A stretch of DNA of 64,000 nt. It comes from Opitutales bacterium. Its GTDB lineage: Bacteria; Verrucomicrobiota; Verrucomicrobiia; Opitutales; Opitutaceae. A program made the translations under genes and the position numbers. The stretch lies in the NCBI GenBank assembly GCA_018700525.1, contig JABITN010000171.1, forward strand, positions 33,411-97,410. The letters are read 5' to 3'. Below are positions 28,096 through 35,616 of the stretch, piece after piece; position 1 is the stretch's first letter, and each line of letters begins with the position of its first letter. Below the pieces are notes generated by a model. The model was not told the DNA's origin and made no database searches. It was given only the letters and a program-made list of their open reading frames with translations.

Positions 28096-29595
28096 ATGCC
28101 GCACGAACTACAGCCCAATATCGATCTCGAACGTTTCGAGGCTTTGTCCCTAGAAGGCAACCTCATCCCTGTCTATGCAGATATGATGGCGGATCTCGAA
28201 ACCCCGGTCACTGCGTACGCCAAGCTCAAATCCGAAAGTCCCGCTTTTTTACTCGAATCGATCGAAGGCGGCGAACGCCTCTCGCGCTACACTTTCATCG
28301 CTTGCCGACCGCGCAAGATCATCAAAAGCTTCTGGGAGACCACGTTTATCGAAGAGCAAGGTGAGCCGACCAAAGAAATCCCCACTCCCGAAGATCCGCT
28401 CACGCTGATTCAGGACGAAATCGATCGCTATCACCCTATCGACTTCCCCGAGCTACCTCCATTCACTGGCGGAGCGGTCGGGTATCTTTCCTACGAATAC
28501 ATTTCCCGCGTCGAAAACACCGTTCCTCGCGCAAATACCAACTGCCATAGTTCGCCGCTTACTTACTACATGCTAGCCGATTCGATGGTCATCTTCGATC
28601 GGGCGAAACAAATCATCCGCCTTTTGGTCAATGCACGCCTCGACGCCTACGATTCTCCCAAAGCCGCGTACGAAGCCGCTCTCGCGGAATTACAGAGTCT
28701 TAAAGCAACGCTCGATTCGCCGAACATCGTAAGCCCAGCCTCCCTCGTCCCGCAGTCGGATATCAATATCCCCGACGGCAATTTCGTCAAAGAGGACTTC
28801 GAAGCGATGGTCGAGCAGTCTAAGGAGTACATTCGAGCCGGCGATATTTTCCAAGTCGTACTGAGCCAACGCTTCGAAAAGGATTTCGAGAAAAGTCCCC
28901 TCGATCTCTACCGAGCCCTTCGCACGGTAAATCCATCACCCTACATGTTTCTCCTCGAAGCAGATGGATTCTCCATCATCGGCGCCTCGCCTGAAGTTCA
29001 CGTGAAGCTAACGGGCGACCAAGTGGAAATTCGCCCAATCGCAGGAACGCGCCATCGCGGCAAAACCGAAGCCGAGGATCTCGCTCTTGAAAAAGACCTG
29101 CTCGCCGACGAAAAGGAAAAAGCCGAGCACCTGATGTTAATCGACCTCGCTCGAAACGACATCGGTCGCGTTTGCCAATACGGCTCCGTCCACGTCCCCG
29201 ACTACATGATTGTCGAGCGCTACTCGCACGTCATGCATATCGTTTCGCAGGTTGAAGGCCTAATTCGTCCTGACCAAAATGGGTTCGATTTGATGCGAGC
29301 AACCTTTCCCGCTGGTACCGTCAGCGGCGCTCCGAAGATCCGCGCCATGCAGATCATTTCCGAAAGCGAACCCGATCAACGCGAATTCTATTCCGGCGCT
29401 CTCGGCTACTTCAGCTACAACGGTAATCTCGATTCCTGCATTACGCTTCGGACCGCCATGATAGCGGACAAAAAGGTAATCATCCAAGCCGGTGCTGGCA
29501 TCGTAGCTGATTCCGTCCCGGAAGCCGAATACCAAGAAACGATTTTCAAAGCCTCCGCTTTGTTCAAAGCCGTTTCTCTAGCCGAATCGTTTTAG
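28096..29595 (+). CDS. trpE: Anthranilate synthase component I
   Basis: 499 residues, normal for TrpE. It makes anthranilate from chorismate with ammonia supplied by the glutamine amidotransferase subunit, the first step of tryptophan synthesis. The tryptophan-feedback element is visible as PAFLLESIEGGERLSRYTFI near residues 49-68. The catalytic core shows SIIGASPEVHVKLTGDQVEI, RPIAGTRHRGKTEAED and FPAGTVSGAPKIRAMQI. No trpG follows here, so the partner subunit must be encoded elsewhere. An AAGAGGA ribosome binding site precedes the ATG. No leader peptide or attenuator was recognised in the 170-base upstream gap. Confidence 0.96.
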   Translation: MPHELQPNIDLERFEALSLEGNLIPVYADMMADLETPVTAYAKLKSESPAFLLESIEGGERLSRYTFIACRPRKIIKSFWETTFIEEQGEPTKEIPTPEDPLTLIQDEIDRYHPIDFPELPPFTGGAVGYLSYEYISRVENTVPRANTNCHSSPLTYYMLADSMVIFDRAKQIIRLLVNARLDAYDSPKAAYEAALAELQSLKATLDSPNIVSPASLVPQSDINIPDGNFVKEDFEAMVEQSKEYIRAGDIFQVVLSQRFEKDFEKSPLDLYRALRTVNPSPYMFLLEADGFSIIGASPEVHVKLTGDQVEIRPIAGTRHRGKTEAEDLALEKDLLADEKEKAEHLMLIDLARNDIGRVCQYGSVHVPDYMIVERYSHVMHIVSQVEGLIRPDQNGFDLMRATFPAGTVSGAPKIRAMQIISESEPDQREFYSGALGYFSYNGNLDSCITLRTAMIADKKVIIQAGAGIVADSVPEAEYQETIFKASALFKAVSLAESF

Positions 29596-29868: not shown

Positions 29869-30771
29869 ATGAACGCGACAATCGACGGACCAACCGCGAC
29901 CGGCAATCGCTTCGCGGAAAACGGAATCATCCAGGATTCCGTCAGCGCCACCCCAATCGAAACGGGGATGCTTTCATTTTCAAAATCCGCTCCTCGTCCG
30001 GCGCCAGTCGACACGATGCAACGAAACTGCATCAAGCATTACTTGAATGAAATCGGCAAGATCCCGCTACTCACCAGAGAGCAGGAAATCACCTTAGCCA
30101 ACCGTATTAAGAATGGCGATCTCAAGGCACGGGAACTCATGATCAAATCCAACCTTCGTCTCGTTGTTAAGATCGCCTACAACTATCAGAGCAAAACGAT
30201 CCGCTTACCCATCCACCTCGTCGATAAAATCTCCAAGATCCACAAAATCGCCACCCAACTCACCGAAGAGTTCGGCCGCGAACCGAGCGACGAAGAACTC
30301 TCCGAGGTCCTCGATATGCCGGTCAATAAAATCGCTCACTTGAAATCGGTAAGCGCCCGACCTGCATCGCTCAACGTTCCAATCGGCGCCAATGGCAATC
30401 TAACCGAATTCGGCGAAATAGTGGGCGACGACAACGCGATCTCTCCCTACCAGCTCTTAAGCGAAAAATCCCTTCGAACCGATCTCTCGGAATTGATCTA
30501 TGATCTTGAAGACAGGGAAAGCTCAATAATAAAAATGCGTTTCGGAATCGAAGCCGATTCACCCCTCACTCTTGAAGAAATCGGAAGAATTTTCAGCATA
30601 ACGCGCGAGCAAGTCCGCCAAGTGCAAAACACAGCCCTTTCCAAATTGTGCCGTATCATGTCCCGCAACGAACGCCAACTGACCCTCGAAGAAGTCGAGC
30701 AAGTCAACCGCATGCAAGCTCGCATGAAAATTTTCAGGGAATACTACGAAGAAACGGCCCACGCCCGCTAG
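29869..30771 (+). CDS. SigA/RpoD-type sigma factor with in-frame loss of regions 2.2-2.4
   Basis: 300 residues. Region 1.2 and the start of region 2 are clear: CIKHYLNEIGKIPLLTREQE and MIKSNLRLVVKIAYNY. The next residues are QSKTIRLPIHLVDKISKI, which in the family follow region 2.4. The stretch expected between them, about 50 residues carrying the core-binding helix (ISEGNIGLM) and the -10-recognising segment (LSTYAAWWIKQ), is absent; the join is at Tyr106/Gln107 (base 30187) and keeps the frame. Region 3 (PASLNVPIG) and region 4 (ITREQVRQVQNTALSKL) remain, with region 4.2 diverged from the usual TRERIRQ. It cannot work as an ordinary sigma factor; it may be an inactive paralog or a modulator. 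Expected sequence is recalled from the family. Confidence 0.8.
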   Translation: MNATIDGPTATGNRFAENGIIQDSVSATPIETGMLSFSKSAPRPAPVDTMQRNCIKHYLNEIGKIPLLTREQEITLANRIKNGDLKARELMIKSNLRLVVKIAYNYQSKTIRLPIHLVDKISKIHKIATQLTEEFGREPSDEELSEVLDMPVNKIAHLKSVSARPASLNVPIGANGNLTEFGEIVGDDNAISPYQLLSEKSLRTDLSELIYDLEDRESSIIKMRFGIEADSPLTLEEIGRIFSITREQVRQVQNTALSKLCRIMSRNERQLTLEEVEQVNRMQARMKIFREYYEETAHAR

Positions 30772-31377: not shown

Positions 31378-32433
31378 TTGAACAAAAAAATTCTCATCGT
31401 CAGAAAAGAAGAGGATGACGCTATCGTGCTATCCTTTCTCTTGTCGGGAACCGGATACCGCACCAGCTCCCATTCCACAGCCCAAACAGCCCTTGATGCT
31501 GCCCGCTTAGAGCAATACGATTTGGCGATCATCGATTGTTCGATTGCTGAAAACCGTCGAGATCTGGACTTCGTTTCCAATCTTAAGGAAACCCAACCTA
31601 AGCTCCCGGTGTTTCTCCTTTCGGAAAATCATGAACTCGACGACGTCATCAGTTGTATTCGAGCAGGGGTTACGCAGATCATCGACGAACCAGAAAACTT
31701 GAAACGCATTTTCGAAGTGACGAACGATTTTTTCGGCAACGACAGCACCGACGGAGGAGATGTTACCTGGGAAGACATACTTGAAGTCGAACGAGCCCTG
31801 GGCACTCTTATCCGAAAGAAAGACGGCGATGTCGACAGCCCCGAAACCGTCGCTAAACGCCTAAGCGAAGAACTCGAACAAGCCCAATCGAAAATTGGCG
31901 AACTCGAGAAGTCGAATAGCTCTTTAAAAATGGCCAGAGACAAGTCGGAAGCGCTTGTCGCCGATATCAAGAATAGCGGCGATGGATCCGAAGTTGGATC
32001 AGCTGACTTCGTAGAACGCCAAACGCAGCTTAAAGAACGCGAACAGCGCTTGAAAGAGCACGAAGCCAAGATCGGAAAACAAAAAGCGGAAGCGGAAATC
32101 ATGTTCTCCGATCTGGAAGCCCGCCAACTCGAAATTGAAGAAAACGGGCACTCACCCAGCGAGGCCGAAGCTGCCGAGATACAAAAGGCCCTCGATTCCG
32201 CTCAATTGGAATGGAACGAGACCCGCCTCGACCTGGAAGCTCAGATCACCGATCTCAACCGCGAAGTAGAACGGGCCAAAGCGAACTCTAATGTTTCCCA
32301 AGAATTGAAGGAGGAGCTTCGCTCGCTTCAGCAATTGCTTCAACAAACCAACGAGGAAGTCGCCGAAAAGGATTTCATCCGCGACCAGAGAGCTAAAGAA
32401 ATCGAAAACCTCAAAGCGCCCACCTCGAAGTAG
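31378..32433 (+). CDS. Receiver-like domain with long coiled coil, 3'-truncated
   Basis: 351 residues if the TTG at 31378 is used, which gives the receiver-like opening NKKILIVRKEEDDAIVLSFL; an upstream GTG at 31222 is possible. Residues 1-120 resemble a two-component receiver: the acidic cluster KEEDD, a possible phospho-acceptor in DLAIIDCSI near residue 53, and LLSENHE. The conserved Lys before Pro is replaced (IIDEPEN), so phosphorylation signalling may be lost. From about residue 140 the protein is a charged coiled coil. It ends at a TAG (32431), after which coiled-coil coding continues in another frame, so this is a shortened form of an originally longer protein. Confidence 0.65.
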   Translation: MNKKILIVRKEEDDAIVLSFLLSGTGYRTSSHSTAQTALDAARLEQYDLAIIDCSIAENRRDLDFVSNLKETQPKLPVFLLSENHELDDVISCIRAGVTQIIDEPENLKRIFEVTNDFFGNDSTDGGDVTWEDILEVERALGTLIRKKDGDVDSPETVAKRLSEELEQAQSKIGELEKSNSSLKMARDKSEALVADIKNSGDGSEVGSADFVERQTQLKEREQRLKEHEAKIGKQKAEAEIMFSDLEARQLEIEENGHSPSEAEAAEIQKALDSAQLEWNETRLDLEAQITDLNREVERAKANSNVSQELKEELRSLQQLLQQTNEEVAEKDFIRDQRAKEIENLKAPTSK

Positions 32434-32995
32434 GCCAAGTCGCCGTTCAAACAATCGAGGACCTCGAAGAAAAGAAGCGAATGCTCGAGGTCGAATGTCT
32501 CAAGCCCCATTAAAAGAGCAACAAATTTGAAGAAGACAAACGAAACTTCGACGAAAAATTCGACGCTAGGCAACGCGAGATCGACGCCAATAAACGCTAT
32601 GCGGAAATTTCGCCTCGCGAACTCCAAAATCGCTTCAAGGAAGAGCAATTAACCCTCAAAGTAGACTCCGCTAAATTTAAAGATCAATCCCGCCAGTTTG
32701 AGCAAACCAAGCAGAACTTCGAAGAGCAGCTTGGGATGTTCGGGCCCTTCCAAGCCATCCGGAGCCTGCACCAGCTCTGACAACCCCTGAAAAGTAGCAA
32801 AGCGCTCCGACTGTAGTCGCTCCAACCGAAGTCGCTCTCAAGTTCGAGCCATGCGTCGCCCGCCAAGATGACACGCCACCGCCACCTTCGACCGACGACA
32901 AATTCCAACCGAAAACTTGGGATAGTCCGCCGAAGAAAAACCGCAAATGCAACCGAGGTCCCCTCCGTATCGGAGGCCGTCCTCCTATCGCCTAA
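32434..32995 (+). pseudogene. Frameshifted 3' remainder of the receiver/coiled-coil gene
   Basis: Shifting frame just before the TAG at 32431 continues the coiled coil (VAVQTIEDLEEKKRMLEVEC). A TAA at 32511 then interrupts it, and the same frame goes on with FEEDKRNFDEKFDARQREID to a TGA at 32778. A third frame carries a Pro-rich tail (TPPPPSTDDKFQPKTW) to a TAA at 32993, itself with an internal TAG near 32795. At least two frameshifts and two nonsense codons separate these pieces. The last bases overlap the stop of the convergent formylglycine-generating enzyme gene. Confidence 0.75.
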
Positions 32996-33996
32996 GCATC
33001 CATCGCCGTCCGGAAACCCATATTTCCGGTCGACGTATCCGGAGTATTCGAAGTCCTCGCCGCAACGCGATAGCGATTGCAATAGCTGTTGTGGCACAGA
33101 TACGACCCGCCTTTCATTACTTTCCGATCACCTCCGTCTGGACCTTGGGGATCGAGCCCATTGCGGCTCGCTGAATTTTCGGTCGCATACCAGTCGTGGC
33201 ACCACTCCCAAACATTACCCGCGACATTGTACATTCCGAATCCATTGGCCCGAAAAGACTTCACCGGCGCAGCACCGATGTAGCCGTCTTCCGCTGAATT
33301 CGAATTCGGAAACTGTCCCTGCCAAATATTGCAGCGATGCTTTCCTTCCGGGGTCAACTCGTCACCCCATGCGTAAAGTTTTTGCTCCAGACCCCCACGA
33401 GCCGCTTTCTCCCATTCCGCTTCGGTCGGAAGACGATGTCCCTTCCATTTGCAGTAAGCGACCGCATCATTCCAAGAAATATGAACGGCTGGATGGTCCA
33501 TTCGCTTCTTTATATTCGAACCTGAACCTTCCGGTTTTCTCCAATAAGCGCCCTCTATCCCGTACCACCACTCTAGGCCTTGGACGCTTTGAGGCTTCAA
33601 GCGCTTCAACACCGACTTCGAAAGCAAAATTCGAAAAACGTAGGTCCAACCAAATCGTTCGGCTTCGGTGACAAAACCCGTGTCGTCGATAAATTCCCCA
33701 AACTCGCGATTCGTTACGCAACATTTGGAAATCCAATACGACCTGAGGTTTACCTCCCTGACCGGCTTCTCGCCGTCCGCATCCCAGCCTTCCTCGCTAT
33801 CCGTTCCCATCAGGAACGCTCCGGAATCGACCAACACCATCTCCGAATGGTCTCCGTAATGGGAAGCGCGTTTCGACAAAGCCTCGTCTACGCTCTTCGC
33901 CTCTCCACCGCAACAAGGAGCCGGAGCTGGATTTGTTGGCATGCAACAACTTTTCTTTTCTTCTGAGGGCATAACGGAAACGGACTCAGCAGTCAT
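32992..33996 (-). CDS. Formylglycine-generating enzyme (sulfatase-maturing, SUMF1/FGE family)
   Basis: 334 residues. FGE oxidises a Cys in the CxPxR motif of sulfatases to formylglycine. The family blocks are present: DSGAFLMGTDSEEGWDADGE, PTEAEWEKAARGGLEQKLYA and GNVWEWCHDWY. The copper-binding active-site pair is intact as SYLCHNSYC, Cys301 and Cys306, followed by RYRVAARTSNTPDTSTGNMG. This marks a real FGE rather than a generic SUMF1-domain protein. The N-terminus has two Cys pairs (KSCCMP and APCCGG) and no classical signal peptide. The two sulfatases in this window have matching FGly motifs and are likely clients. Confidence 0.92.
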   Translation of the reverse strand: MTAESVSVMPSEEKKSCCMPTNPAPAPCCGGEAKSVDEALSKRASHYGDHSEMVLVDSGAFLMGTDSEEGWDADGEKPVREVNLRSYWISKCCVTNREFGEFIDDTGFVTEAERFGWTYVFRILLSKSVLKRLKPQSVQGLEWWYGIEGAYWRKPEGSGSNIKKRMDHPAVHISWNDAVAYCKWKGHRLPTEAEWEKAARGGLEQKLYAWGDELTPEGKHRCNIWQGQFPNSNSAEDGYIGAAPVKSFRANGFGMYNVAGNVWEWCHDWYATENSASRNGLDPQGPDGGDRKVMKGGSYLCHNSYCNRYRVAARTSNTPDTSTGNMGFRTAMDA

Positions 33997-34903: not shown

Positions 34904-35616
34904 ATGAAAGGCAAAAGATACACTACAGAACAGAAGATCCGCGTTCTGCCCGAGGCGGCTGCATCGCAGCACGTTCGCCTACCGGGCGAAACAGCTGGAT
35001 GCCTGGCTCTCGAAGCTGAAGTCCGCGGTTCGTCGAGGCCCCTCCAACGGCCTTCCGACCAAGGCGACGCACCGCAATCACGTCTGGACTTGGGACTTCG
35101 TTCACGACACCACGATGTGCGGCGGAACGCTTCGCATGCTCAATATCCTCGACGAGTACACTCGGGAATGCCTATGCGTCCACGCGGATCGCCGGATCAA
35201 CGCCCGCAAGGTCAGGCGGATTACGTCCGCGTTGATCGAGCGCCATGGAGTGCCCGAGCACATCCGCAGCGACAACGGTTCGGAGTTCATCGAACGCGGG
35301 CTACGCCACTTGCTTGCCGAGAATAGGATCAAGACGCTCTACATAGAGCCGGTAAGCCCTTGGCAGAATGGATACGTGGAAAGCTTCAATGCTCGCTTCC
35401 GAGAGGAATGCCTTGACCGAGAGTATCTTTGGACTCTGACCGAGGCTCGAGTGGTAATCGAAGACTGACGATGGAAGTACAACAATATACGGCCCCATCG
35501 CTCGTTGGGCTACATTACTCCACTGGAGTTCTCCCAATAACTGCTGGAGGAAAGCTAACCAAACCAATGTCTGGCCTCCAGTCGGCCTACGGCTTCCTTG
35601 CGACCCGACATTGACA
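34904..35616 (+). pseudogene. IS3-family transposase relic (orfA 5' end joined to orfB)
   Basis: The first codons read MKGKRYTTEQKIRVL, the start of an IS3 OrfA. The sequence then jumps to the middle of OrfB (frame of 35115): AWLSKLKSAVRRGPSNGLPT, NHVWTWDFVHDTT, then the integrase core LNILDEYTREC, HIRSDNGSEFIE and PWQNGYVESFNARFREECLD with DDE-type residues. A TGA at 35466 interrupts the final block, which continues RWKYNNIRPHRSLGYITPLE in frame. Most of OrfA and the OrfB N-terminus are missing. Terminal inverted repeats could not be identified. The copy is inactive. Confidence 0.88.

Follow-up and report, generated by a model that had tools for sequence, protein, structure and literature searches.

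The main hold of a sigma factor on the β' coiled coil is provided by its region 2.2. For a dispensable sigma factor such as that encoded by rpoS, loss-of-function alleles occur in enterobacteria. According to PMC2613000, the -10 element is recognized by region 2.4, and the -35 element is contacted by residues R584 and E585 of sigma70, while the beta flap positions region 4. In a section of PMC8103513, SigO is described as containing regions 3 and 4 and lacking region 2; a table in PMC10141391 assigns the domains of SigO-RsoA in another way. Among the papers listed for sigma factors of the Verrucomicrobia and for group 2 sigma factors, a query at the level of the phylum and not of the Opitutaceae, none is devoted to the gene described here according to its title. 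The gene resides in a stretch of 64,000 nucleotides, referred to as the window, from a genome of the Opitutaceae (G000) that is available as a draft of 268 contigs with a completeness of 96.47%. We propose that it very probably represents an accessory sigma factor gene of a kind that has been lost repeatedly, here in the form of a recent loss-of-function allele, and hence an early-stage pseudogene.

The sigma factor gene and its internal deletion

The plus strand of the window carries, at positions 29869..30771, a gene for an accessory RpoD-like sigma factor with an internal in-frame deletion. Its product of 300 aa (P0001) comprises regions 1.2/2.1, 3 and 4, with NLRLVVKIAYNY joined directly to QSKTIRLPIHLV. 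Alignment with the 353-aa ortholog of G003 revealed that 51 codons (153 nt) are absent at this join without a shift of the frame. The deletion junction is at 30184..30189 (plus strand), where 30186 is the last base before and 30187 the first base after the missing segment. At the protein level there is a single gap of 51 residues, located between AYNY and QSKT; the rest of the window protein is collinear with 353-aa sigma factors. Pfam domains PF00140, PF04539 and PF04545, representing regions 1.2, 3 and 4, were detected above cut-off, and no Pfam match was obtained in the window protein for region 2 (PF04542). The full-length relative P0005 contains all four Pfam regions. Since its region 2 (residues 91-160) overlaps the gap, most of this region is gone from the window protein; we take the lost stretch to be regions 2.2-2.4. 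Alignment and Pfam analysis thus bear out what the initial annotation had read from the window alone, namely that about 50 residues of the core-binding and -10-recognition segment are missing, that the join is at base 30187, and that the frame (300 open codons) is kept. As to the origin of the deletion, no long direct repeat that would suggest removal via flanking repeats was seen by eye at its two ends in G003.

The primary, SigA-type sigma factor of this genome is encoded by a separate gene, a 577-codon ORF on contig C240, which also answers whether an intact second sigA is present. Judged from sequence comparison, the window gene is a second, RpoD-like accessory sigma factor and not the primary one; its previous designation as "primary-type" is appropriate for the family, but not for the gene. 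Using a dividing line of E<=1e-40 that we set ourselves, we found a match in 44 of 57 genomes; within the family, 24 of the 26 other genera are represented among these, with synteny confirmed in part of the genomes only. In the loci compared, the sigma gene follows trpE. The left synteny anchor in the window is a trpE-like gene at 28096..29595 (plus strand; presumably trpE, as named from its sequence), and the right anchor is an FGE-sulfatase/SUMF1-like gene at 32992..33996 (minus strand). Neither of the two full-length forms tested reached an equivalog cut-off among the best 25 NCBIfam families.

The domain content of the window protein resembles that of SigO as given in the section of PMC8103513 cited above. 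This raises the question if the protein could be one half of a split sigma factor that obtains region 2 from another protein, like Bacillus subtilis SigO with RsoA. A possible source of region 2 would be an ORF of 106 codons on contig C103 of G000 that matches an ECF-type region 2, but has a stop inside the match. However, in G000 a full-length relative used as query otherwise matched SigA (C240) and, weakly, C115 and C135, none of which adjoins the gene. At the 20 of 23 region-2 places inspected, the ORFs had at least 178 codons, C103 excepted; region 4 was examined in C135 only. No region-2 partner protein was found in the draft genome (96.47% complete, with these 20 of 23 places inspected for ORF length), and we consider a split sigma factor highly improbable.

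A detached region-2 piece or a second full copy in G000 was likewise considered and dismissed, as none was seen in the draft beyond SigA and the weak matches. The 106-codon ORF (locus L040, positions 1369-1686 of C103, minus strand) directly precedes a helicase-like gene. On C135, locus L048 (665-1813) encodes an unusual sigma-like protein of 383 aa with region 2 at residues 183-238 and region 4 at residues 319-371, whose long N-terminal part gave no Pfam match; weak matches over the same query region were also seen in G003, G001 and G009.

Relatives with the same deletion and their substitutions

The protein search returned 7239 hits, 120 of which were listed and counted as relatives. Two of these 120 share the gap, and in the other 118 the region-2 domain is present. 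The two, P0002 and P0003, are the nearest kin of the window protein among the relatives listed, and both have a length of 300 aa. P0002 (99% identity, 24 members) derives from three contigs, the longest comprising 138613 bases versus 97410 for the contig of the window; as its source entry is blank, which is the case for proteins encoded by the window, the cluster could contain the window copy itself, with the representative differing from the window protein at three residues. For this reason P0003 (96% identity, 12 members, contig of 22320 bases) is the clean independent case. The proteins P0004-P0007 are full length (353 aa) and 80-81% identical to the window protein over shared columns. As indicated by the identical gap in the separate cluster P0003, the deletion predates the split from P0003; by parsimony, it would be younger than the split from the P0004-P0007 group. 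An assembly or sequencing error, which the initial annotation had offered on a par with other readings, might be suspected in view of a draft in 268 contigs and a P0002 cluster that may hold the very same copy. It is contradicted by the gap in P0003, which at 96% identity and on another contig must stem from another strain or species; as both assemblies would need to have erred identically, we rate such an error as extremely improbable.

The frame is open across 300 codons in all three sequences of the deletion clade (P0001, P0002 and P0003), which diverge by up to 4%. Thirteen columns vary among them, and at five of these (98, 112, 216, 246 and 248) the 118 full-length proteins all share one residue. 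When closely related full-length proteins were compared in 13 disjoint pairs, 7 of 138 differences fell on columns with at least 95% conservation, as opposed to 5 of 13 in the clade (Fisher p 0.0012). The latter fraction is near the neutral expectation for random placement (92 of 300 columns); when all 59 overlapping full-length pairs were considered, 14 of 858 differences were on conserved columns. Excluding P0002, whose changes could be sequence errors, left 3 of 11 (p 0.027), and the full-length pair P0004/P0006 alone also showed 3 of 11, so that the contrast with the clade is not absolute. At 81 near-fixed columns, the clade members depart at 5, 6 and 6 positions, whereas no departure at all is seen in 95 of the 118 full-length proteins, and none of them exceeds 4. 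Among the departures of the clade, D105N and V238I predate the deletion, since both are also found in full-length P0005 (V238I in P0006 and P0007 as well). Relative-rate counts from 24 overlapping comparisons lean toward relaxed constraint, with 20-26 versus 6-14 changes and chi2 values between 1.4 and 10.0.

Two dN/dS fits were performed with G000, G002, G003, G004 and G007, leaving out G001, G009, G018, G022 and G029. With branch times shared with trpE and a transporter gene, dN/dS of the sigma gene was 0.090 on the G000 branch versus 0.062, a difference that is not significant (2dL 1.55). The separate per-gene fit gave 0.32 versus 0.026 (2dL 7.0), but here the branches were saturated, and for the FGE-sulfatase gene the estimates on both terminal branches reached the limit set for the parameter (20.1); we therefore prefer the shared-branch fit, even though its result for the sigma gene is the weaker one. 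Three sequences of the deletion clade were found, with DNA from one of them, so that dN/dS spans the whole G000 branch. Because dN/dS is low over this entire branch, the deletion looks recent, which would have left little time for decay. The earlier argument that the readability of regions 3 and 4 speaks against random decay since the deletion loses most of its force on this account.

A protein with regions 3 and 4 but devoid of region 2 could also rival SigA in binding to the beta flap or to -35/extended -10 DNA, which would make it the natural modulator envisaged in the initial annotation. In this scenario, a one-step deletion would have created a dominant-negative decoy of the SigA holoenzyme, consisting of regions 3/4 only and kept by the clade; acting at the beta flap or on -35 DNA, it would silence the old regulon. 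The open frame kept in three sequences at up to 4% divergence, the low dN/dS on the branch and the scores of regions 3 and 4 above the Pfam cut-offs are compatible with such a role, as are the helices predicted by AlphaFold, with block pLDDT values that in regions 1.2/2.1, early 3 and 4 are mostly 81-94. On the other hand, the model, with a pTM of 0.31, pLDDT values below 50 at residues 108-110 and of 48-61 over residues 161-200, shows confident helices on either side of the join and no new compact whole. Moreover, residues fixed in the 118 full-length proteins are altered in each clade member (R248Q in the window protein, R246H in P0002, R216L in P0003), and in sister species the greater part of the gene is gone. 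Positions 246 and 248 lie in the -35 recognition helix and correspond to R584 and R586 of sigma70 according to our mapping, which follows the R-E-x-x-R spacing; the changes at these two positions make a decoy role less likely. A protein without regions 2.2-2.4 would, at best, keep a weak contact with the flap. With the open frame as the sole positive argument, and with residues needed for the role altered within the clade (R246H in P0002, R248Q in the window protein), we regard both the competition with SigA and the maintenance of a decoy by the clade as improbable.

Loss of the sigma gene and its neighbour in the genus

Comparison of the orthologous loci in sister species uncovered full-length open orthologs as well as differently broken remnants. 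Among the eleven genomes of the genus, six have an open full-length gene (G001, G002, G003, G004, G007 and G009), one has the in-frame deletion (G000), three contain only broken remnants in the same slot (G005, G008 and G010), and one, G006, was not judged, since it gave no match better than SigA, but trpE was not found there either. In G010, a piece of the first ~69 residues is left, with its frames shifted, and leads directly into the coil part of the neighbour gene, where stops are present; in a search of that 1520-base interval, the piece showed 62.7% identity to G002 along 51 residues (E 2.7e-16). The arrangement in G005 is the same, whereas G008 has retained 20 residues of region 2 fused to region 4, interrupted by stops. 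A tree built from four flanking genes joined G000 with G003, G008 with G001, and G005 plus G010 with G002, each with 100% support. The gene is thus open in a sister of every affected lineage, and no two of these lineages show the same lesion. We infer from this that the sigma gene has been lost independently at least three times in the genus.

The neighbour of the sigma gene, encoding a receiver-domain/coiled-coil protein, is a pseudogene in the window (31378..32992, plus strand), with homology in three frames and a stop inside the second piece. Its counterpart in G003 is open and encodes 565 aa with a receiver domain (PF00072); including G003, open genes of 525-573 aa were found in five genomes (also G002, G004, G007 and G009). 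In G005, G008 and G010 the gene is reduced to scraps, among them a tail-like one of 17 residues in G008 (E 0.002 to 0.03). A strict co-loss of the two genes was considered, but is not borne out by G001, in which the neighbour is broken and the sigma gene open. In several other genera (e.g. G011, G012 and G013), the sigma gene occurs without a neighbour homolog at E<=1e-5.

With shared branch times and five genomes, dN/dS of the neighbour gene was 0.25 on the G000 branch versus 0.074 (2dL 21.8), and the neighbour may have decayed first, with the deletion in the sigma gene as a recent event. The support for this order is weak, as open genes also evolved faster: the neighbour itself, although intact in G003, on the branch of that genome (0.194 versus 0.079, 2dL 10.7), and the open frame of the FGE-sulfatase gene (32992-33996) on the G000 branch (0.082 versus 0.028, 2dL 9.85).

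Further along the window, positions 34904-35560 harbour a broken transposase-like stretch. Its integrase core, presumably of the IS3 type, is readable in pieces by eye; a 140-codon frame in this stretch gave no Pfam hit. The genes flanking it are ~310 bases apart in G003 and ~1320 bases in the window.

Fate of the sigma factor and comparison with known systems

In line with an early-stage pseudogene, the window gene has lost an essential domain that its orthologs retain, and the deletion clade carries substitutions on otherwise fixed sites. The remnants of other deletions in sister species and the decayed neighbour, together with these changes within the clade, support the "dying paralog" that had been one of the initial suggestions. 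According to our proposal, an in-frame deletion removed 153 internal bases from the gene of a conserved RpoD-like accessory sigma factor, and its product, devoid of regions 2.2-2.4, is likely unable to act as a sigma factor. It would neither clamp onto the β' coiled coil nor recognize or melt the -10 element, and its former regulon would now be silent or served by SigA. The slot occupied by the sigma and receiver/coiled-coil genes would be dispensable in this genus and would have been erased by separate deletions, the window representing an early stage and G005, G008 and G010 later ones.

The genus would thus provide a case of parallel loss of a conserved accessory sigma factor with its stages still readable as open, gutted in frame or reduced to fused scraps. 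The pairs with and without the gene (G003/G000, G001/G008 and G002/G005+G010) offer natural comparisons for finding the regulon of this sigma factor. The case also serves as a warning that an open frame with recognizable domains need not encode a functional regulator.

Relative to the accessory (group 2-like) sigma factors of RpoD/SigA type in the Opitutaceae and elsewhere among the Verrucomicrobiota, the window gene is an ortholog by sequence and by its position after trpE; its product differs in lacking the 51 region-2 residues that its relatives (353 aa, P0004-P0007) retain. Like SigO, it is a sigma protein with region 4 and without region 2, but no RsoA-like partner was found here, and the state arose by deletion within a one-piece sigma factor. 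With the rpoS alleles of enterobacteria it has in common that a dispensable sigma factor is repeatedly lost. It concerns, however, another sigma factor in another phylum, and here the sister species still contain legible scraps of the gene from separate deletions.
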